A stretch of 64,000 nt of DNA from NCBI GenBank assembly GCA_016209015.1, contig JACQWY010000003.1, positions 124,001 to 188,000 of the forward strand, written 5' to 3'. The notes beneath the pieces were generated by a model that was not told the origin of the DNA, searched no databases, and saw only the letters and a list, made by a program, of their open reading frames with translations. The translations under genes and the position numbers were made by a program. Shown here one piece after another: positions 1,193 through 64,000 of this stretch; position 1 is the first letter of the stretch, and every line of letters starts with the position of its first letter. This DNA is from Gammaproteobacteria bacterium (GTDB taxonomy: Bacteria; Pseudomonadota; Gammaproteobacteria; Ga0077536).

Positions 1193-2509
1193 TCAGGCCT
1201 TCCCGAGCGCTTTGCTGAGGACGATCGAGTTGCGGCGGTAGTTGTAGAGCTCGCGCCGCTCGACCGGCAGGTCATCCAGCCCGACTTTCGAGTAGCCCTT
1301 CTCCTGGAACCAGTGCGCGGTGTGCGTCGTCAGCGCGAACACCCGGCTCATGCCCCGGTCCTCCGCCCGCTGCTCGAGCGCCGCGAGCAGCGCATCGCCG
1401 AAACCATTGCGCCGATACTCGGGATGCACGGCGATGCACGCGATCTCGCCCATACCGGCCGCGGCGAAAGGATAGAGCGCGCCACAGGCGACGACCGTGT
1501 CGTCGCGCTCGACGACCGAGAAGCGGTCGATTTCCATCTCGAGCTTCTCCCGCGATCGTTTCACGAGGATGCCCTCCGCCTCGAGCGGCTCGATGAGATC
1601 GAGTATGCCGCCGACGTCCTCGATCCCGGCCGGTCTCAGCCGGTCGAAAGGCGTGCTGCTGACGAGGGTGCCGACGCCGTCGCGCGTGAAGAGCTCGAGC
1701 AGCAGCGCGCCCTCCACTTCCCGCGGCACGAGATGCACGCGCCCGACGCCCGAATTGCAGGCCTCGAGTGCGCACGACATCACCTGGGCGAGCGGCTCTG
1801 GGAGCGTCAGCGCCGCCGCCTCCTGTGCCGTCAGTTCGCGCAGCACCGCGCCGTCGGGCCCGGCCACGCCCGGACCATCACACAGCACGATGAGCTTCGC
1901 GGCTTTCAGTTCCGCGGCTATCGACGTCGCGAGGTCCAGCGCGTTCAGGCTGAAGACCTCGCCCGTCGGCGAATACGCGAGCGGCGAGACGAGCACGAGA
2001 TCGTCCTGGTCGATCAGGCGCCGGATGGCGGAGGCATCGACCTTGCGGACCTCGCCCGTGAATTGGAGGTCGATGCCGTCGACGACGCCGGCCGGGCGGG
2101 CGACGACGAAGTTGCCGCCGACGATGCGCAACGGCGTGCCGCCGAACGGTCGGTTGACCGTGGCGTGCGAGAACTGCGCCTCGACGGTGATGCGTGCCGC
2201 CGCGACGGCGAGCTTGACCTCGGCGAGCGCGGCCGCATCCGTCACCCGGATGTGCCGGCACCAGGTGCTCGCGATGTTCGCGGTGGCGAGCCGCGCATCG
2301 ATCTGGGGGCGCGCGCCGTGCACGAGCACGAGCTTCACGCCGATGCCGTGCAGCAGGGTCAGATCCTGGACGAGGTGCGGGAAGCGCGCGTCCACGAGCG
2401 CCTCGCCGCCGAGATGGACGACGAACACGTGATCGCGATGCGCGCGGATGTAGGGCGAAGCCTCGCGCATGCCGCGTACGAAGGATACCGCTTCTTGCTT
2501 CTCGAACAT
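1193..2509 (-). CDS. argA: N-acetylglutamate synthase ArgA
   Basis: This 438-residue protein makes N-acetylglutamate from acetyl-CoA and glutamate, the first step of arginine synthesis. It has the classical ArgA layout: an amino-acid-kinase-like domain first (residues about 20-280, with LVLVHGARPQ near residue 62) and a GNAT acetyltransferase domain last (about 290-438, with the acetyl-CoA loop EYRRNGFGDALL). The length matches the E. coli type. The ATG at 2509 is preceded by GGGTGA. It is divergent from ilvD across 155 bp, and argG for a later step lies at 57.5 kb, so arginine genes are scattered. Feedback inhibition by arginine is known for the family but is not shown here. Confidence 0.95.
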   Translation of the reverse strand: MFEKQEAVSFVRGMREASPYIRAHRDHVFVVHLGGEALVDARFPHLVQDLTLLHGIGVKLVLVHGARPQIDARLATANIASTWCRHIRVTDAAALAEVKLAVAAARITVEAQFSHATVNRPFGGTPLRIVGGNFVVARPAGVVDGIDLQFTGEVRKVDASAIRRLIDQDDLVLVSPLAYSPTGEVFSLNALDLATSIAAELKAAKLIVLCDGPGVAGPDGAVLRELTAQEAAALTLPEPLAQVMSCALEACNSGVGRVHLVPREVEGALLLELFTRDGVGTLVSSTPFDRLRPAGIEDVGGILDLIEPLEAEGILVKRSREKLEMEIDRFSVVERDDTVVACGALYPFAAAGMGEIACIAVHPEYRRNGFGDALLAALEQRAEDRGMSRVFALTTHTAHWFQEKGYSKVGLDDLPVERRELYNYRRNSIVLSKALGKA

Positions 2510-2664
2510 GATTCACCCGGATTGCCGGCGGGCCCGCGCGGCCCGGCCGCATTCTACACGCTACGCCCCCGAGCCGCTTCGACGGCGCCGGTGCGAGCCG
2601 GTATGATCCGCGCTCCCGTCGAGCCGCCCACGCCGGCGCTCGCAGCCCGAACCAGGAGACAACG

Positions 2665-4344
<1,680 letters not shown>

Positions 4345-6567: not shown

Positions 6568-7554
6568 GTGTACCGACTCGACGAGATCGCTGAACGCTTC
6601 GGATTCGAACTGCAGGGCGATCCGGCCCTCGTCGTCGCGGGACTCTGCGGCCTCTCGGACGATCTGCCCGGGCATCTTTCCTTCGTCGGTGCCCCGAAGC
6701 ACGCCGCTGCCGCGCAGCGCTCGAACATTCCCGCATTCGTCACCCGCGCGGAGCTCCCGATCGAAGGCAAGGTCTGTCTCTTCCACCCGCATCCGGAATA
6801 CGCAATCGCCCTCGTCGGCCAGCTCTTCGAGCGCTCCAAGCTGACGCAGGTCGCCCGCATCCACGCCAGTGCGGACATCCACCCCAGCGCGGAGCTCGCC
6901 CCCGACGTCGTCATCGGCGCGAACGTCGTCATCGGTCAGGATACGCGCATCGGGCCGCGGACCCGGATCATGCCCGGATCGGTGGTCATGGATCGCGTCC
7001 AGATCGGAGCGGACTGCCTCGTGTATCCGAACGCGGTGGTGCGCGAGGATTCGGTGCTCGGCGATCGCGTGCTGGTGCAGCCCGGGGCCATCATCGGCGG
7101 CGACGGCTACGGCTTCGTGCAGTACGAAGGCCGGCACGTGAAAATCCCGCAGCTCGGCCGGGTCGTGCTCGAGGACGACGTGGAGATCGGTGCGAACACC
7201 ACCGTCGATCGCGGACGCTTCACGGAGACGCGCATCGGCCGCGGCACGAAGATCGACAACCTCGTCATGCTGGCCCACAACGTGCGCCTCGGCGAGAACT
7301 GTCTCATCTGCGCGCAGAGCGGCATCTCCGGCAGCACGCGCCTGGGCGACCGGGTGACTTTCGCGGGGCAGGTCGGCGTCGCCGGCCACATCGACATCTG
7401 CAGCGACGTCACCGTGCTCGGCAAGTCGAGCGTGACGAAGGGCGTGCGCACGCCCGGAGTGTACGCCGGGATCCCGTTCCGGCCCGTGGAGCGCTGGCGC
7501 AAGGCCGTCGCCCGTTTCTATCGCGACATCGATCACGAACGGGACAAGGACTGA
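6568..7554 (+). CDS. lpxD: UDP-3-O-acylglucosamine N-acyltransferase LpxD (stand-alone copy)
   Basis: LpxD adds the N-linked 3-hydroxyacyl chain to UDP-3-O-acylglucosamine in lipid A synthesis. From a GTG at 6568, preceded by GAGAGGAG, it has 328 residues: an N-terminal uridine-binding domain, about 25 hexapeptide turns forming a left-handed beta-helix, and a C-terminal helix. The catalytic histidine is in MLAHNVRLG, followed by AQSGISGST. In most Gram-negatives lpxD sits in the bamA-skp-lpxD-fabZ-lpxA cluster. Here none of those genes flank it, so it is either a relocated gene or a second copy. An upstream in-frame ATG at 6424 would add 48 atypical residues and is rejected. Confidence 0.9.
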
Positions 7555-7589
7555 CCCCTGCCCGCGCGGATCCGACCGGACAGCGCGTC

Positions 7590-8498
7590 TCAAGCAGTTC
7601 GGATCGGCGGAAAAAGGCTCGCCCTGCTGACGGCTGCCGGCAGCTTCGCTCCCAGAGGCCCTTCGAGCCAGTGCGCGGTCGCGACGAGCGCGGCGAGATC
7701 GATGCCGGCGTCGTAGCCCATGCGCTGGAACAGATAGAGCAGATCCTCGCTCGCCACGTTGCCCGTCGCGCCCGGCGCGAACGGACAGCCGCCCAGGCCG
7801 CCGACGCTCGCATCGAATATCCGCACGCCGGCCGCGAGCGCCGCACAGACGTTCGCCACCGCGGTGTTCCGCGTGTTGTGGAAATGCAGACGCAGCGGCG
7901 TCCCGCCGAGTACCGGCTGCACGAGCTCGATCATGCGAGTCACGTCCGAGGGCACGGCAACGCCGATCGTGTCGGCGAGCGCGATCTCGTCGACACCGCT
8001 GTCGACGAGCGCGGCCACCATGTCGCGTACTTTCATGGGCTCCATCTCGCCTTCGAACGGACAGCCGAAGGCCGTCGCCACGGTGACGCCGAAGAAGCGC
8101 CCCGCGGCCTTCGCGCGCGGCGCGAGCCCGGCGATCAGCGCGAGCATCTGTTCGGGCGTGCTGCCCTGGTTCCTGCCGCAGAACGTCGTGCTCGCGACGG
8201 CCGCACAGTTCAACTGCTCGATGCCGCTCGCGAGCGCCCGCTCGAAGCCCTGCGCATTGAGGACGAGCCCGATGTAGCGCACGCCCGGCGCACGCGGCAG
8301 CCGTGCGACGACCGCGTCCGCGTCCGCCATCTGCGGGACGCGTTTCGGACTCACGAAGCTCGCCGCTTCGATGCGCCGCACGCCGGCCGCCACGAGCCGC
8401 GTGATCAGCTCTATCTTCGTATCGGTGTCGAGAAGGGTGGGCTGGCTCTGCAGGCCGTCGCGCGGGCCGACCTCGACGATTTCGACTGACTGGTTCAT
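7590..8498 (-). CDS. mvaB: Hydroxymethylglutaryl-CoA lyase
   Basis: This TIM-barrel enzyme cleaves 3-hydroxy-3-methylglutaryl-CoA to acetyl-CoA and acetoacetate, the last step of leucine catabolism. The 302 residues start with EVGPRDGLQ (substrate and metal-binding arginine and aspartate), then HFHNTRNTA with the metal-binding histidines, and the family signature with catalytic cysteine in GGLGGCPFAPGATGN. The ATG at 8498 follows GGGGAGAG. No other leucine-degradation genes adjoin it, though the fadJ/thiolase pair at 15-18 kb could take up the products. Confidence 0.92.
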   Translation of the reverse strand: MNQSVEIVEVGPRDGLQSQPTLLDTDTKIELITRLVAAGVRRIEAASFVSPKRVPQMADADAVVARLPRAPGVRYIGLVLNAQGFERALASGIEQLNCAAVASTTFCGRNQGSTPEQMLALIAGLAPRAKAAGRFFGVTVATAFGCPFEGEMEPMKVRDMVAALVDSGVDEIALADTIGVAVPSDVTRMIELVQPVLGGTPLRLHFHNTRNTAVANVCAALAAGVRIFDASVGGLGGCPFAPGATGNVASEDLLYLFQRMGYDAGIDLAALVATAHWLEGPLGAKLPAAVSRASLFPPIRTA

Positions 8499-8642
8499 GG
8501 CGCTCTCCCCTGGATTTGCCCGGATTCTAATGAGCCGCCGGCCGCTGCGCCACGCCGCCCGCCTGCCCGACGCGCGCCGCCATGACGCCCCGGGACGCAT
8601 CCATTATCCTTGGCCTCCTGACAGCATGCGGAGCGAGAACAC

Positions 8643-9995
8643 ATGGCGGCCTACGACTTCGACCTGTTCGTGATCGGCGCGGGATCCGGCGGCGTGCGCG
8701 CCGCACGCATGGCGGCGGGCTTCGGGGCGCGAGTCGCCGTCGCCGAGGACCGCTACTTCGGCGGCACCTGCGTGAACGTCGGCTGCATCCCGAAAAAGCT
8801 GCTCGTCTACGCCGCGCACTATCCGCACGCCGTAGCCGCGGCGCGCGGTTACGGCTTCGAGACGGCAGCCCCGAAGTTCGACTGGCCGACGCTCATCGCG
8901 AACAAGGACCAGGAAATCGCGCGTCTGAACGGCGTCTACGAGCGCGTCCTCACGAACGCGGGTTGCAAGATTCTGAACGGCCGCGCGACGCTCCTGGATC
9001 CGCACACCGTCGAAGTGAACGGCGTGCGCCACAGCGCGGCGAACATCCTCGTCGCGACCGGCGGTTGGCCCTACGTTCCCGACATCCCGGGACGCGAGCA
9101 CGCAATTACGTCGAACGAGGCATTCCATCTGCCTGCGCTGCCGAAGCGCGTCGTGATCGTCGGCGGCGGCTATATCGCGGTCGAGTTCGCGGGCATCTTC
9201 CACGGCCTCGGCGCCGCGACGACGCAAATCTACCGCGGCCCGCTCTTCCTGCGCGGCTTCGACGGAGAGGTCCGCACGTTCCTCGCCGCCGAGATGCGCG
9301 CTCGAGGCGTGAAGCTGCTGTTCGACAACGACGTGAGCTCCATCGTCGAAGAAGGCGGCGAGCTCGTCCTCTCGCTCAAGGACGGCACGCGCCTCGCCTG
9401 CGATGGCGTGCTCTACGCGACCGGCCGGCGCCCGAACAGCGGCAAGCTCGGGCTCGCCGAATGCGGCGTCGAGCTCGATGCCGACGGTGCGATCCGCGTC
9501 GATGCGAACTACCGCACGGCATGCCCGTCGATCTACGCCGTCGGCGACGTCACGAACCGCGTGAACCTCACGCCCGTCGCGCTCGCCGAAGGCATGGCGC
9601 TCGCCCGTGCGCTCTTCGGCGGTATGGACCGGCAGGTCGATTACGACTACATCCCGACCGCCGTGTTCAGCACGCCGCCGATCGGTACGGTCGGCCTCAC
9701 GGAGGAGCAGGCACGCGACGTCTACGGCGACGTCGCCGTGTACACCTCGAGCTTCACGCCGCTCCGCTACACCATCTCGCCCGTCAAGGAACGCGCATTC
9801 ATGAAGCTCGTCGTCGACAAGGCGAGCGACCGCGTCGTCGGCGCGCACATGTGCGGTGAGGACGCCGGTGAAATCGTGCAAGGATTCGCCGTTGCCATGC
9901 GCGCGGGTGCGACGAAGGCGGTATTCGATTCGACGATCGGCATCCATCCGACGGCCGCGGAGGAATTCGTGACGATGCGGGATCCGGTGCGGTGA
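8643..9995 (+). CDS. gor: Glutathione-disulfide reductase
   Basis: This FAD- and NADPH-dependent enzyme regenerates reduced glutathione. It has 450 residues with an N-terminal FAD dinucleotide fold ([11 protein letters not shown]), the redox-active disulphide [13 protein letters not shown] (near residues 41-53), a second nucleotide fold ([12 protein letters not shown]), the FAD segment AVGDV and the C-terminal dimer interface with the catalytic GIHPTAAEE. The CxxxxC spacing and C-terminus fit Gor better than lipoamide dehydrogenase. The gene is monocistronic. The hairpin after it carries its U-tract on the opposite strand. Confidence 0.93.
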
Positions 9996-57510: not shown

Positions 57511-58725
<1,215 letters not shown>

Positions 58726-58937: not shown

Positions 58938-61346
58938 ATGGCAGAGACCCTCGAGCGGCTCGGATCGCGCATTGCGGATCACCGGGGGACGGAACGGTCG
59001 GACGGCGACTCTCCTCTCGGCCTCGAGAGCTGGTATGCGCGCCGCTATGCCCTGTACTGGTCCGTCGTCAATCTCGCCACGCTCATCCTTCTCGCGACCC
59101 TCGTCCAGCACGCCGTCCCGCCGCGCACGCTCGCCGCTTGGGGCGTCTTCGTCGCGCTGAACGCGCTCGCCTATCCCGCGCTCGCCCGCCTCACGCCGTC
59201 CGCGACCGGCCGGCATGCCGCGGCGAGTCACGCGCTGCAGGTCGGCCTCGCCGCGGTATTCGGCGCAGCCTGGGGTTCCGCCGCGATGCTCTTCGCGCCC
59301 TCGCTCGCGACCGACACGTTGAGCGCGCTCGCGCTGCTCTGTGTACTCGTCGCGTTCGCCGCGATCCCGGTGTTCAGCGTCTACCGCTACGCCTTTGCGG
59401 CGTTCCTCGTCGCCTTCGGCCTGCCGCTCTGCTATGCGCTGTTCGGGGACGCGGGGGATGCGGGCGCGGCGCTCGCGGTCGTCGTGCTCGCACTGCTCGC
59501 GCTCGCTGCGGGTGCGTTCGAGCGGATGCTGGTGCGGCCGCTGCGGGCGCTGCGGCGGCTCGTCGGCGCGCTCGAAGGCGCCGGCATCCGGCCGGAGGAC
59601 GCCGCGGCGCTCGACGCCGATTTCGCGCGCCGCGCGGATGCGCACGCCGCGGCGCTCGAGAGCTGGTTGCGCGATCAGGCCGCAGATCGCCAGGCGCTCC
59701 ACGATCTGCCCGAAGCGCTCGTGCGCACCGATGCGCGCGGTCTCGTCGAATACATGAATCCGGCGGCCGAGATTCTGACCGGCCTCTCGCTGCGCAATGC
59801 CCGCGGCGAGCCGCTGGAGCGCGTCGTGCGCCTGCAGTCGCCCGGCGAGACCTCGCTGACGCGCCGGCTGATGGAATGCTGTGCGCGCGGCGGCAGCGCG
59901 CAGGCGGGCGACGTCGCGCCCGTGCTCGTGAAGGCCGACGGCACGCAGTGTGCGGTCGAGGTTCTCGTCGCGCCGCTGCGCGGCGAGCATCCGGGCCTCC
60001 TGTGCGCGTTCCACGACGCGACGGCGCGGCGCCGCAAGGAAGAGGCCGCGCAATTGCTCGCGACGCACGATCCGCTGACCGGGCTCGCGAACCGCTTCGA
60101 GTTCGCCGCCGCGCTGAAGAAGCTCGTCGCCGATCCGGAGGCCGCGCCCGGGACCCGCCATGCCGTGTGCCTGTTCGATCTCGATCAGTTCATCCAGCTC
60201 AACGACACGTTCGGCAGCGCCGCGGGCGACGCCGCGCTCGAGCACGTCGCCGAGCTCCTGAAGCGCAAGGTGCGCGGTGTCGATCTGCTCGCCCGCACCG
60301 GCGACGACGAGTTCGGGGTCCTGCTCTACGGTTGCACGCTCGAGAAAGCGCGCACGCTCGCCGAGGGTCTGTGCCGGCAGATCGCCGGGCAGCCGCTCGT
60401 GTGGCGCGACACCGAGCTGACGATGCGCGCGAGCGCGGGCGTCGTCGAAGTGAGCCCGCTGACGTCGCGCCTCACCGACATCCTCGGCGCCGTCGAGAGC
60501 GCCTGCGCCGCGGCCCATCGCGCCGGTGGCAACCAGGTGCAGATCTTCGGCGCGGACGACGAATTCATGCGCGGACGCAACGAGCGGCACACGCGCGTGC
60601 GGCTCGTGCAGAGCGCGCTCGAGGACGAGAACTTCGAGCTCCTGTTCCAGGCCGCCGCACCGCTGAGCGGCGGCGCGCCCGGCGGACGTTACGGCGAGCT
60701 GCTGCTGCGCCTGCGGCTCTCGAACGGCGATCTGCTCAGGCCCGCGGAATTCCTGCCCGTCGCCGAACGCTATCATCTGCTGCCTGACATCGACCGCTGG
60801 GTCCTGAAGTCGGCGCTGCAGGCGATGCACTGGGGCGATCCGACGCTCGCCGGGTCGGACGTCGTCGCCTTCAACGTTTCCGCGCAGACCGTGCGCGACG
60901 AGTCGTTCGTCGATTTCGTGCGCGCGTCGGCCGAGGAGTTCGGGGTGGCGGGCGAACGTCTGTGCTTCGAGATCGCGGAAGACGAGCTCCAGGCCGGCGC
61001 CGCGCGCGCCTTCTATTTCGTCGCCCGGCTCACGGATTTCGGCTGTCAGGTCGCGCTCGACGATTTCGGCGCCGGCGCGAGCTCGTTTCAGCTCCTGAAG
61101 CGCATGCACGTCGATTACGTGAAGCTCGGTCCCGAGCTCGTGCACAACCTCGCGCAGAACGCCGTCGACTACGAGATCGCGCTCGGCATCTGCCGCATCG
61201 CAAAGCAATTGCGCGTGCGCGTGATCGCGGAAGGCGTGAACAACGACGCGACGCGCAAGGCGCTCGCCGGCCTCGGCATCGATCTCGTGCAGGGCCATCT
61301 CTTTAAACGGCCGGAGCCGCTGCTGTTCAATCCGAAGCTGAGCTGA
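58938..61346 (+). CDS. Membrane PAS-GGDEF-EAL protein with altered catalytic motifs
   Basis: This 802-residue protein should sense a signal and act on cyclic di-GMP. The N-terminal 200 residues have about six membrane helices, then a coiled linker, a PAS domain (about 255-365), a GGDEF domain (about 370-540) and an EAL domain (about 560-800). The GGDEF site reads GDDEF (455-459). The EAL site reads ELL (587-589), while N645, E678, D708/D709 and K729 are kept; the loop AEGVE reads AEGVN. Cyclase activity is doubtful and phosphodiesterase activity uncertain. It may be a c-di-GMP receptor. Its end overlaps the convergent hvfC by 20 bases. Confidence 0.9.
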   Translation: MAETLERLGSRIADHRGTERSDGDSPLGLESWYARRYALYWSVVNLATLILLATLVQHAVPPRTLAAWGVFVALNALAYPALARLTPSATGRHAAASHALQVGLAAVFGAAWGSAAMLFAPSLATDTLSALALLCVLVAFAAIPVFSVYRYAFAAFLVAFGLPLCYALFGDAGDAGAALAVVVLALLALAAGAFERMLVRPLRALRRLVGALEGAGIRPEDAAALDADFARRADAHAAALESWLRDQAADRQALHDLPEALVRTDARGLVEYMNPAAEILTGLSLRNARGEPLERVVRLQSPGETSLTRRLMECCARGGSAQAGDVAPVLVKADGTQCAVEVLVAPLRGEHPGLLCAFHDATARRRKEEAAQLLATHDPLTGLANRFEFAAALKKLVADPEAAPGTRHAVCLFDLDQFIQLNDTFGSAAGDAALEHVAELLKRKVRGVDLLARTGDDEFGVLLYGCTLEKARTLAEGLCRQIAGQPLVWRDTELTMRASAGVVEVSPLTSRLTDILGAVESACAAAHRAGGNQVQIFGADDEFMRGRNERHTRVRLVQSALEDENFELLFQAAAPLSGGAPGGRYGELLLRLRLSNGDLLRPAEFLPVAERYHLLPDIDRWVLKSALQAMHWGDPTLAGSDVVAFNVSAQTVRDESFVDFVRASAEEFGVAGERLCFEIAEDELQAGAARAFYFVARLTDFGCQVALDDFGAGASSFQLLKRMHVDYVKLGPELVHNLAQNAVDYEIALGICRIAKQLRVRVIAEGVNNDATRKALAGLGIDLVQGHLFKRPEPLLFNPKLS

Positions 61347-62115
61347 GCCGTCTGGCCCCGAGCAGCACTTCGCCCTTCAGCAGGTCATCCAGCATCGCCG
61401 CACCCGCGGCGGCGAGCGTGGCCGGATCCGCGCCGAGCTCTCTCGCCACCTCTGCCACGAGCGCGCTCCCCGCGCGCTCCGGCGCCGTCGCGACGAGCTC
61501 GACGAGCCGTGCGGTGGCCGGCGTCAGCGTCATGAACGTCACGGCGTCGCTGCGCGTGCGCAGGACCGCGAGATACGTCGGCGTCTCCGGCGCGGTCTCC
61601 GGAACGTGCCCGGGACCGAGGCGATGCACGGGCCAGCGATACGCGCCCAAGCGCACGGTCGGATTCAGGACCGGCGCGCCACGCTCGCAATCGACGTCAG
61701 CGTCGATCGCAATCCCCTCGAGCTCGCTCTCGTCGAACGAGACCTCGAGCTCGAGCCACTCGTACGTCACGAGCTCGGCGAACCACGGCGGCAGATCCGC
61801 CGTCCCGCGCGCGGCGAGCCACCGCGCGAACTCCTGCGGCAGGCGCGGGAACGACACCGTCGTCGCGCGATGCTCGCGCAGCCAGTCCTCGAGCAGCACG
61901 TGCCAGCGCGTCTCGCCGAGCAGCGCGCGCGCGACGGGATAGCAGTTCGACATGAAGGATTCGACGTTGTCGAACACGAGCTCGCGATAGACCGCGAGGC
62001 GGCGCGGTTCGACGCCGGCAGGCGCCGGCGCACTCCGCGGATCGCGCACCCAGGCCGCGAAACCGGCCTGGATCGCGGCGTAGTCGTCGGGCGCCTCAGG
62101 CACGCCGCTTCGCAT
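61327..62115 (-). CDS. hvfC: HvfC-like DUF2063 partner protein
   Basis: This 262-residue DUF2063 protein is the usual partner of DUF692/MNIO enzymes and is thought to bind or present the precursor peptide, like MbnC in methanobactin synthesis. It has the family N-terminus (QAGFAAWVRDP, then RRLAVYRELVFDNVESFMSNCYPVARALLGE) and a middle segment PPWFAELVTYEWLELEVSF. The name putative DNA-binding domain used in databases is misleading. ATG 62115 overlaps hvfB by 20 bases; a GTG at 62103 is an alternative. It is the last gene of the hvfABC operon; no DoxX-type hvfD follows. Confidence 0.88.
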   Translation of the reverse strand: MRSGVPEAPDDYAAIQAGFAAWVRDPRSAPAPAGVEPRRLAVYRELVFDNVESFMSNCYPVARALLGETRWHVLLEDWLREHRATTVSFPRLPQEFARWLAARGTADLPPWFAELVTYEWLELEVSFDESELEGIAIDADVDCERGAPVLNPTVRLGAYRWPVHRLGPGHVPETAPETPTYLAVLRTRSDAVTFMTLTPATARLVELVATAPERAGSALVAEVARELGADPATLAAAGAAMLDDLLKGEVLLGARRLSSASD

Positions 62116-62944
62116 TCCGCTCGTTGCCCGCGGCCTGCGCCGCACCGATGCGCTCCACTTCGTCGAGCAGTACGCCGAGCGGCGGCAGATTGAAATCACG
62201 CTCGAGCAGCGTCGGGAACACGCCGAGCCGTGCGTAAGCCTCGTCGAGCAGCGCCCACACCGGATCGACGATCGGCGCGCCGTGCGTGTCGATCAGCAGA
62301 TCGGGCGCGCGAACGTGATGCCCGGCGATGTGCGCATAGGTGATGCGCTCGGCGGGCAGACCGCAGAGATAGTCGAGCGCGTCGTAGCCGTGGTTCACGC
62401 TGTTGACGTAGATGTTGTTCACGTCGATGAGCAGATCGCAGTCGGCTTGTGCGATCACGGCGCCGATGAACTCGAGCTCGCTCATCTCCGCACCCGGCGC
62501 GCAGTAGTAGGAGATGTTCTCTATCGCGATGCGCTGACCGAGCACGTCCTGCACCTGCCGGATGCGCGCCGCGACGTGCTTCACCGCGCCCGCCGTGAAC
62601 GGCATCGGCAACAGTTCGTAGAGCTGGCCCTCGTCCGCGCAATAGCTGAGGTGATCGCTGAAGCAGCAGATGCGGTAGTCGACGAGGAAGGATTTGAGGC
62701 GTGCGAGCCAGGCGGTATCGAGCGGCGCCTGGCCGCCGAGGTTCGTGCCGAGCCCGTGCGCGACGAGCGGGACGCGCTCGGCGACGGCCGCGAGACTGCG
62801 CCGGGAGCGACCGCCGAGGCCGGCCCAGTTCTCCGGCGCGAGCTCCATGAAATCGATCGCCGCGGGCCAGGCGGCCGCGAGCTCCTCGAGATGGGGCCGG
62901 CGCAGGCCGAGCCCCTTGCCGTGGACGGGAAACCGGGCCGCCAT
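62096..62944 (-). CDS. hvfB: HvfB-like DUF692 multinuclear non-haem iron oxidase (MNIO)
   Basis: MNIO enzymes use two or three iron ions and oxygen to modify cysteines of precursor peptides. The 282 residues have the TIM-barrel DUF692 pattern with candidate metal ligands H63 (HGLGTNLGG), H98 (SDHLSY), E142 (ENISYY), D174 (DVNNIYVN), H205 (HIAGHH), D219 and H221 (DTHG) and E248 (LLERD). All expected ligand positions are filled, so it looks active. The start at 62944 is 20 bases after the precursor gene stop. Closest by context is HvfB, which converts EGKCG units to oxazolone-thioamide or related copper ligands; the methanobactin enzyme MbnB is a more distant relative. Confidence 0.92.
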   Translation of the reverse strand: MAARFPVHGKGLGLRRPHLEELAAAWPAAIDFMELAPENWAGLGGRSRRSLAAVAERVPLVAHGLGTNLGGQAPLDTAWLARLKSFLVDYRICCFSDHLSYCADEGQLYELLPMPFTAGAVKHVAARIRQVQDVLGQRIAIENISYYCAPGAEMSELEFIGAVIAQADCDLLIDVNNIYVNSVNHGYDALDYLCGLPAERITYAHIAGHHVRAPDLLIDTHGAPIVDPVWALLDEAYARLGVFPTLLERDFNLPPLGVLLDEVERIGAAQAAGNERNAKRRA

Positions 62945-62964
62945 GGGCCGCGTCGCCGGGGAGC

Positions 62965-63234
62965 TCAGCTCCCCTTCTTGTCGGTCTTGTCTTCGCTGCT
63001 GTCTTTCTTGTCGTCGCTCGGCTGGGCGCCGCCGCACTTGCCTTCCTCGCCCTTGCCCATCGACATGCCGCCGCCGCACTTGCCTTCGTCGGCCGCGACG
63101 ACATAGCCCGACTTCAGCGTCTTCGCGCCGAAAGGATTCTCCGCGGCATTCGCCGCCGGCGTCGCGGCGAGCGAAACGGCGAGCGTCGTGCCGAGCACTG
63201 CGGCCACGGTCTTCAGTTCAGAGTTCTTGCCCAT
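62965..63234 (-). CDS. hvfA: HvfA/bufferin-like copper-peptide precursor
   Basis: The 89-residue precursor has a Sec signal peptide (about residues 1-30, ending PAANA), a short spacer, two EGKCGG units (residues 50-55 and 64-69) and a charged tail rich in lysine, aspartate and serine. Only two cysteines exist, both in these units. The EGKCG unit is the known modification site of HvfA from Haemophilus, where the product binds copper. The ATG at 63234 follows AGGAGA. It is the first gene of the leftward operon and faces the pmoC-like gene. Whether this peptide is modified and binds copper here is inference. Confidence 0.9.
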   Translation of the reverse strand: MGKNSELKTVAAVLGTTLAVSLAATPAANAAENPFGAKTLKSGYVVAADEGKCGGGMSMGKGEEGKCGGAQPSDDKKDSSEDKTDKKGS

Positions 63235-63589
63235 GCGTGTCTCCTAGAGTTTGCTCCTGCGCGAAGCGCGATCAGCCCGCACCGCAGCGCGGCCGGCCAG
63301 CCGGCGAGTCGCGGCTCGTGAGCCCCGCGGACGCGGGGCAGGGATGGATCTTCGACGCTGCGCCGCGCCGCTGCAAGCCGGGCGGCGCGGCCGTGCCGTG
63401 CGCCGGTGCAAAGTTCACGATCCTGTTTCGATCCGCACCGAGCCGAAATCATGCGCGCCCGCCCCGCTGAAATGCTGCGGTGCAGAGGTGTGATCCACGT
63501 ATTGACGGCCGGGGATATCCCACATCACCATTGCACCAATTCTGTTGCGGCCCATGTTCTCTAACGCGCACAGCGCAAGGAGTCGATCG
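63235..63589. promoter_or_regulatory. 355-bp divergent control region between hvfA and pmoC
   Basis: No gene is visible. The right part holds TTGACG (63502-63507), the perfect 10-bp palindrome GGGATATCCC (63512-63521) and, close to the start, AAGGAG (63578-63583), the ribosome site of the pmoC-like gene. The left part is very GC-rich, with several short inverted repeats. A good -10 element was not found, and a sigma-54 site was looked for and not found. The region must drive both the copper-peptide operon and the monooxygenase operon. Confidence 0.6.
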
Positions 63590-64000
63590 ATGAGCAGCGT
63601 CCTTCCTCATCCCACGGCGAGCTCGACGGCGAAAGCCGCGGCCACCGACAAACCCATCGTGAACTACAAGCCTGCCATCTTCGGACTGGCCGGCGTGCTG
63701 CTCATCATGGTCGCCTATCGCATCTACCAGCAGATCTTCGCGTTCTCCGCCGGCCTCGATTCGACGGCGCCGGAGTTCGACACCTACTGGATGAATCTGC
63801 TGAAGGGCGAGCTCGTCCTGCTCGTCTGCTCCTGGGCCGGTCTCTGGTCGTACCTGTGGTTCACGCGCGATCGCAACCTCACGGCGTTGAAGCCGCGCGA
63901 AGAGATGCGGCGCTACTTCAGGCTCGTGATGTTCCTGCTGGTCTATGCGTTCTGCGTGTATTTCACGGGCAGCTTCTTCGGCGAAGAGGATGCGTCCTGG
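63590..64000 (+). CDS. pmoC: Copper membrane monooxygenase subunit C (PmoC/AmoC family), 5' part
   Basis: The frame is open to the right edge, giving the first 137 residues of PmoC-like protein (full length about 250-270). Three membrane helices are visible (about 28-48, 72-92, 110-130). The stretches SAGLDSTAPEFDTYWMN (53-69), YLWFTRDRNLTALKPREEMRR (88-108) and FTGSFFGEEDASW (125-137) match particulate methane monooxygenase PmoC as I recall it, with TRDRNL and PREE present; ammonia-type AmoC instead has TRDTEEQL. The copper ligands (D, H, H) lie beyond the edge. Substrate could be methane, a short alkane or ammonia; motifs favour a PmoC type. pmoA and pmoB would follow if the operon is normal. 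Confidence 0.93.
   Translation, partial: MSSVLPHPTASSTAKAAATDKPIVNYKPAIFGLAGVLLIMVAYRIYQQIFAFSAGLDSTAPEFDTYWMNLLKGELVLLVCSWAGLWSYLWFTRDRNLTALKPREEMRRYFRLVMFLLVYAFCVYFTGSFFGEEDASW

Follow-up and report, generated by a model that had tools for sequence, protein, structure and literature searches.

A pmo/cop cassette beside an hvfABC operon at the lysS-argG site of a gammaproteobacterial genome

When the genes for a putative copper-binding peptide lie next to those of a copper monooxygenase, does their proximity reflect a joint function? The question is raised by a stretch of 64,000 nucleotides (hereafter the window) from a gammaproteobacterium of the Ga0077536 lineage (assembly GCA_016209015.1, contig JACQWY010000003.1, positions 124,001 to 188,000), in which a complete and tightly packed hvfCBA operon on the minus strand (61327-63234) faces pmoC, the first gene of a cassette coding for a particulate monooxygenase and for copper-related proteins. 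A preliminary description, made from the sequence of the window, had proposed that the two gene sets form a meaningful pair. Gene neighbourhood is often taken as function; here, the reading that we favour, with a probability of roughly 85%, is that of an ordinary hvfABC operon at a family-wide ancestral site between lysS and argG, with a pmo/cop cassette in the lysS-hvfA gap in this lineage alone. A striking neighbourhood would then stem from a single cassette within a conserved block.

Position of the operon and of the cassette

In ten relatives belonging to six other genera (G005, G007, G009, G014, G016, G017, G018, G026, G027 and G035), hvfABC comes directly after lysS, the distance from the lysS stop codon to the hvfA start being 79-235 bp where it is measurable. 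The order of the block in these relatives is recJ-prfB-lysS-hvfABC-(GGDEF/EAL)-argG, with orientations kept and the flanking genes seen in several of them. The window genome has the same genes in two halves: recJ, prfB and lysS on one side, and on the other hvfABC, a GGDEF/EAL-like gene (58938-61346, plus strand, convergent with hvfC, with a homologue detected by tblastn at the same position in the hvf blocks of several relatives) and argG (57511-58725, plus strand), which is 76-89% identical to the argG genes found near hvfC in five relatives. Between these halves, the lysS-hvfA gap amounts to 7,598 bp and houses the pmo/cop cassette, which runs on the opposite strand. Genome G007 has exactly this layout minus the cassette, prfB, lysS, hvfA, hvfB and hvfC being in one orientation and a diguanylate cyclase gene and argG in the other.

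As the lysS-hvfABC block is closed in ten relatives, the operon appears to be older in its place and the pmo genes to have arrived later beside it; hvf and pmo would be adjacent because the cassette occupies a gap that is empty in the relatives. By parsimony, we infer that the cassette entered the lysS-hvfA gap in the window lineage. The reverse history, in which the gap held the cassette ancestrally and every other genus lost or relocated it, seems highly improbable: the direction is unprovable from one genome with the cassette at this place, and the pmo genes of the family are similar enough to be old (PmoC is 66-78% identical in genera g2 and g3), but a gap closed in ten relatives of six genera would require many parallel losses or relocations, and three closed-gap relatives (G014, G027 and G035) have pmo elsewhere, a fourth (G015) having been seen from the argG side only. 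That an assembly or binning artefact joined unrelated sequences is hardly credible. The genome (5.7 Mb) is indeed in 65 contigs, but the junction lies inside a contig of 229,730 bp, the halves of the conserved block flank the cassette on either side, and the G+C content is uniform (0.696 for hvf, 0.695 for the pmo cassette and 0.67-0.69 for the flanks).

A cassette lying in an otherwise conserved block makes the neighbourhood poor evidence of joint function, and therefore removes it as evidence for a copper-chaperone peptide dedicated to the particulate methane monooxygenase (pMMO). The preliminary description had delimited its feature as 61327-64000, a span that is right for the operon and that omits lysS and most of the pmo/cop genes, the very parts which explain the arrangement.

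Distribution of hvf and pmo genes among relatives

If the pairing mattered, it might be expected to recur. The order to which the window genome belongs consists of a single family, of which 36 genomes were compared, 12 of them (including the window genome) having pmoC; methanotroph orders are thinly sampled in the comparison, the order around G063 being represented by 2 genomes. No gene for a multinuclear non-haem iron-dependent oxidative enzyme (MNIO), the enzyme type encoded by hvfB, was found near pmoC in any of the 11 pmo-bearing family relatives (some contigs end near pmoC, e.g. in G011 and G015, and in each such relative the MNIO gene is on another contig). The same is true of nine other genomes of the class with AmoC/PmoC (0/9), where MNIO genes lie on separate contigs or at distances above 200 kb, and none of the 14 loci retrieved by a search of genome contigs with pmoC has hvfB or hvfC nearby. 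The claim of a meaningful hvf-pmo pairing does not survive these counts, nor the position of the cassette inside an older block. The genes upstream of pmoC differ by genus: an ATP-binding cassette transporter and a short-chain dehydrogenase/reductase in g2, a SnoaL-like gene, a peptidyl-prolyl isomerase and an HrpB-like helicase in g3. The constant companions of pmo across the family are the esterase-like gene, the HGG-motif gene, copC and copD. A literature search of incomplete coverage turned up no description of pmo genes adjoined by an hvf or bufferin operon; such a neighbourhood may therefore not have been described before, and it is also not conserved.

These results bear directly on the proposal that modified HvfA provides copper storage, buffering or delivery to the particulate monooxygenase specifically, with the divergent layout serving co-regulation. 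The genes are divergent neighbours separated by a gap of 355 bp, the cassette includes copC and copD, the motifs of the monooxygenase are kept, and every pmo/amo genome compared in the class has an MNIO gene somewhere. The pairing is nevertheless absent from all the other pmo-bearing genomes just listed, and hvfABC retains its lysS neighbourhood regardless of pmo. EGKCG-type hvf genes occur in 4/11 relatives with pmo (being missing in the other seven) and in 8/24 without (Fisher p = 1; the precursors of G015 and G025 lie off the contig, and these two were assigned to the EGKCG type by their place in the MNIO tree and their argG neighbourhood), so that the presence of EGKCG-type hvf is unrelated to pmo, and the copper genes that regularly accompany pmo in the family are copC and copD, not hvf. 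We consider this proposal unlikely. A broader version, in which the placement of the cassette was selected, a peptide with two thiooxazoles buffers periplasmic copper for the monooxygenase, the gap holds shared copper-responsive control and MNIO peptides are near-universal, non-neighbour companions of gammaproteobacterial copper monooxygenases, seems to us just as doubtful.

Some observations pull against the reading of an ordinary operon with a later neighbour. No insertion scar, target-site repeat or transposase was identified, the longest word common to both ends of the cassette being 11 bp. The genus is represented by one genome only, so the arrangement may be either young or old, selected or not. 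The window HvfA carries just two motifs and scores below both NCBIfam HvfA models (NF050188 and NF050137), with no match in Pfam or NCBIfam at E<=0.01; such models, drawn up by one curator for recognition, do not define the family. Finally, an MNIO gene is present in all 20 gammaproteobacterial pmo/amo genomes compared, versus 60% of the class sample (222/369 genomes). All 10 genomes of that sample with AmoC/PmoC have one (p = 0.007), and within the family MNIO genes of any type occur in 11/11 relatives with pmo and 14/24 without (p = 0.015), p values that ignore relatedness and genome size. These counts, uncorrected for kinship, are compatible with MNIO peptides and copper monooxygenases being loosely linked at the level of genomes, and leave room for MNIO copper peptides being generally useful in copper-rich bacteria with no dedicated pairing. 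This leftover trend is a question separate from that of the neighbourhood.

Genes of the operon and of the cassette

The unit recognized in the preliminary description, a secreted EGKCGG precursor with an MNIO and a DUF2063 partner, is complete, all three genes being found in order on the minus strand, and it does diverge from the pmoC-like gene, which lies on the plus strand about 355 bp away. The identity proposed for it, a hvfABC operon for a copper-binding ribosomally synthesized and post-translationally modified peptide (RiPP), is backed by family models and by the published chemistry of close homologues. The first gene, hvfA (62965-63234, minus strand), codes for a precursor peptide of 89 aa, recognized from its open reading frame, a motif search and alignment with the precursors of relatives. 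It has a Sec-like signal peptide at about residues 1-30 (...ANA/AENPF), as judged by eye, and two EGKCGG motifs with Cys53 and Cys67. A search with the back-translated motif finds it at exactly two places in the whole window, both within hvfA, with 0 expected from shuffled sequences. Residues M1, P34, F35 and C53 are invariant in the alignment with the EGKCG precursors of relatives, and one of these precursors does pass NF050137. We take the window HvfA as a divergent member of the family because of its motifs, its homology and the genes around it.

The maturase gene hvfB (62096-62944, minus strand) probably starts at MAARFPVHGKG within an open reading frame spanning 62096-63079, which gives an MNIO (DUF692) protein of about 282 aa. 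HvfB matches PF05114 (E = 2.1e-97), passes the NCBIfam 'HvfB family' model NF003818 (389.7 bits, cut-off 360) and aligns with PDB 3BWW (E = 2.1e-72), its DVNNIYVN, HIAGH, DTHG and ERDFN motifs being intact. The site-3 ligands of Haemophilus HvfB are N175, D242 and H244 (PMC13419390), and these positions would fall in the intact DVNN and DTH stretches here. The partner gene hvfC (61327-62115, minus strand; likely start MRSGVPEAPDD in an open reading frame of 61327-62199) overlaps hvfB by about 20 nt and codes for a DUF2063 protein of the PME1 or RiPP recognition element type of about 262 aa, which matches PF09836, NGO1945_C and PDB 3DEE and passes the 'HvfC family' model NF050145 (251.4 bits, cut-off 142). 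PADLOC gave no match that would indicate a defence system. The operon is best placed, as a small representative, in the known HvfA/oxazolin/captophorin (Buf_EGKCG) family. After the hvf operons of G026 (L084, about 1800-4130) and G035 (L085, about 6750-8965) there are FMN-binding/glutamate-synthase-like and DoxX-like genes (judged from translations), both missing from the window operon.

By analogy with characterized homologues, the operon would work as follows. HvfC would recruit the HvfA precursor, and HvfB, an iron MNIO, would convert the cysteine of each EGKCGG motif to a 5-thiooxazole in the cytosol, in keeping with the published mechanism of HvfB and HvfC (PMC13419390) and with EGKCG homologues, whose 5-thiooxazoles and binding of copper have been described (PMC13097082). 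The modified peptide would then leave by Sec and, once in the periplasm, buffer or sequester copper by binding it, in line with the view of EGKCG peptides as agents of copper sequestration or protection (PMC12452194, PMC13097082). It probably carries two 5-thiooxazoles and serves to buffer periplasmic copper. The data are explained without specific delivery to the monooxygenase, and a pMMO-specific role of the peptide, possible in itself, is unsupported. Fontiphorin enzymes require two repeats to be active (PMC13097082), a need that HvfA with its two motifs just meets; this precursor would be well suited as a minimal substrate of the HvfBC type of enzyme. The two-repeat fontiphorin substrate loses about 4 Da per cysteine on modification (PMC13097082).

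A perfect palindrome (GGGGAGC-TGA-GCTCCCC, 62958-62974, with a stem of 7 bp and a loop of 3 nt) lies over the hvfA stop codon and could be an attenuator or mRNA stabilizer between the precursor and enzyme genes; terminator-like matches in the scan were no more frequent than in shuffled sequences. In the divergent hvfA-pmoC gap (63235-63589, about 355 bp) a consensus scan detected no sigma-70-like promoter, and comparison by eye gave no obvious common regulatory motif upstream of hvfA across the family. The idea that the two gene sets have a promoter or regulatory site in common there was therefore set aside.

The cassette is intact and comprises, on the plus strand, pmoC, pmoA, pmoB and genes for an esterase-like lipoprotein, an HGG-motif protein, CopC and CopD/cytochrome c. 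Only the 5' part of pmoC falls in the window (63545-64000, with a likely start at 63590 from comparison with relatives), the gene ending at window coordinate 64375 and the cassette at about 70819, after which lysS follows on the minus strand. Pfam E values for pmoC (PF04896), pmoA and pmoB are 3.8e-98, 8.3e-97 and 4.4e-136, and PmoA, PmoB, CopC and CopD all exceed Pfam cut-offs. The N-terminal His and HxH of PmoB and the FTPSH and NExGH motifs of PmoC are kept in alignments to Methylococcus capsulatus and PDB sequences, so the monooxygenase looks intact.

As for its substrate, the monooxygenase genes also pass the AmoCAB_BACT models of NCBIfam. An ammonia monooxygenase of a nitrifier was judged unlikely, as no hydroxylamine oxidoreductase (PF13447) was found in the window genome, G003 or G008 by a search that was positive in the amo/pmo-bearing controls G170, G282 and G355. 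This absence, together with four pyrroloquinoline quinone alcohol dehydrogenases over cut-off in the host genome, makes oxidation of methane or short alkanes more likely than nitrification, the AmoCAB_BACT matches notwithstanding. Near-identical pmo/copC/copD contigs are present in L027 and L028, from metagenome-assembled genomes titled Bradyrhizobium and Ca. Sulfotelmatobacter, unrelated titles that suggest mis-binning.

Comparison with known systems

The hvf operon is not the only MNIO locus of its host. The window genome has five, on contigs C28, C36, C44 and C65 (two on the latter), with precursors of HvfA-like, BufA2-like (a C44 peptide matching NF050166 with 88 bits, above 60) and two-Cys types. 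The loci on C44 and C65 are of the bufferin kind and separate from hvfABC, and the C44 cluster has an ECF sigma-like gene upstream. Another MNIO-DUF2063 type occurs on C36 (L010, about 7000-8900) and in L094-L111 and L116, about 20 family loci in all. Its precursors, where read closely, are Sec-type with two cysteines only (...KDPAVCGTFxGxSCSM...) and have no NCBIfam match; unlike the EGKCG, BufA1, BufA2 and CxxxxC classes, they may form an undescribed class. The precursors of L087, L089, L091 and L093 have repeated KCGN-ICGG-like motifs with 8-9 Cys, and in the MNIO tree these loci make up a separate clade next to the EGKCG type.

Methanobactin (mbn) operons also code for an MNIO-made copper peptide and occur in methanotrophs. 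The window operon, however, has no mbnC, its precursor carries a Sec signal, and its product is probably a thiooxazole rather than an oxazolone-thioamide; a methanobactin was ruled out, HvfB reaching 43.3 bits against the MbnB cut-off of 325 (TIGR04159) and the precursor being of Sec type. Among pmo-bearing bacteria, USC-gamma (UBA7966) methanotrophs and Methylocapsa gorgona were reported in 2021 to have DUF692-DUF2063 clusters, for which metal chelation was proposed as the role (PMC8692599). These clusters resemble the window operon as clusters of an MNIO and its partner, but have a six-Cys precursor and are not reported adjacent to pmoCAB (PMC8692599). The bufferins Buf1 and Buf2 likewise combine an MNIO with a PME1 partner and are Sec-exported periplasmic copper buffers (PMC12452194), with precursors of other families (DUF2282 and six-Cys) than the window HvfA.

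The closest likeness is to HvfABC/oxazolin of Haemophilus influenzae and to fontiphorin and gonophorin, two EGKCG captophorins. The window HvfA differs from oxazolin and fontiphorin in having two EGKCGG motifs 14 residues apart, against six modified sites in oxazolin and seven in fontiphorin; unlike the HvfABC/captophorin systems, the operon has no DoxX gene, its HvfA is below the NCBIfam models, and the modification and copper binding of its peptide are predicted. With oxazolin, fontiphorin and gonophorin it shares a Sec-signal EGKCG precursor, an MNIO of the HvfB subfamily and a DUF2063 (PME1) protein, encoded in the same order (PMC13097082, PMC13419390).

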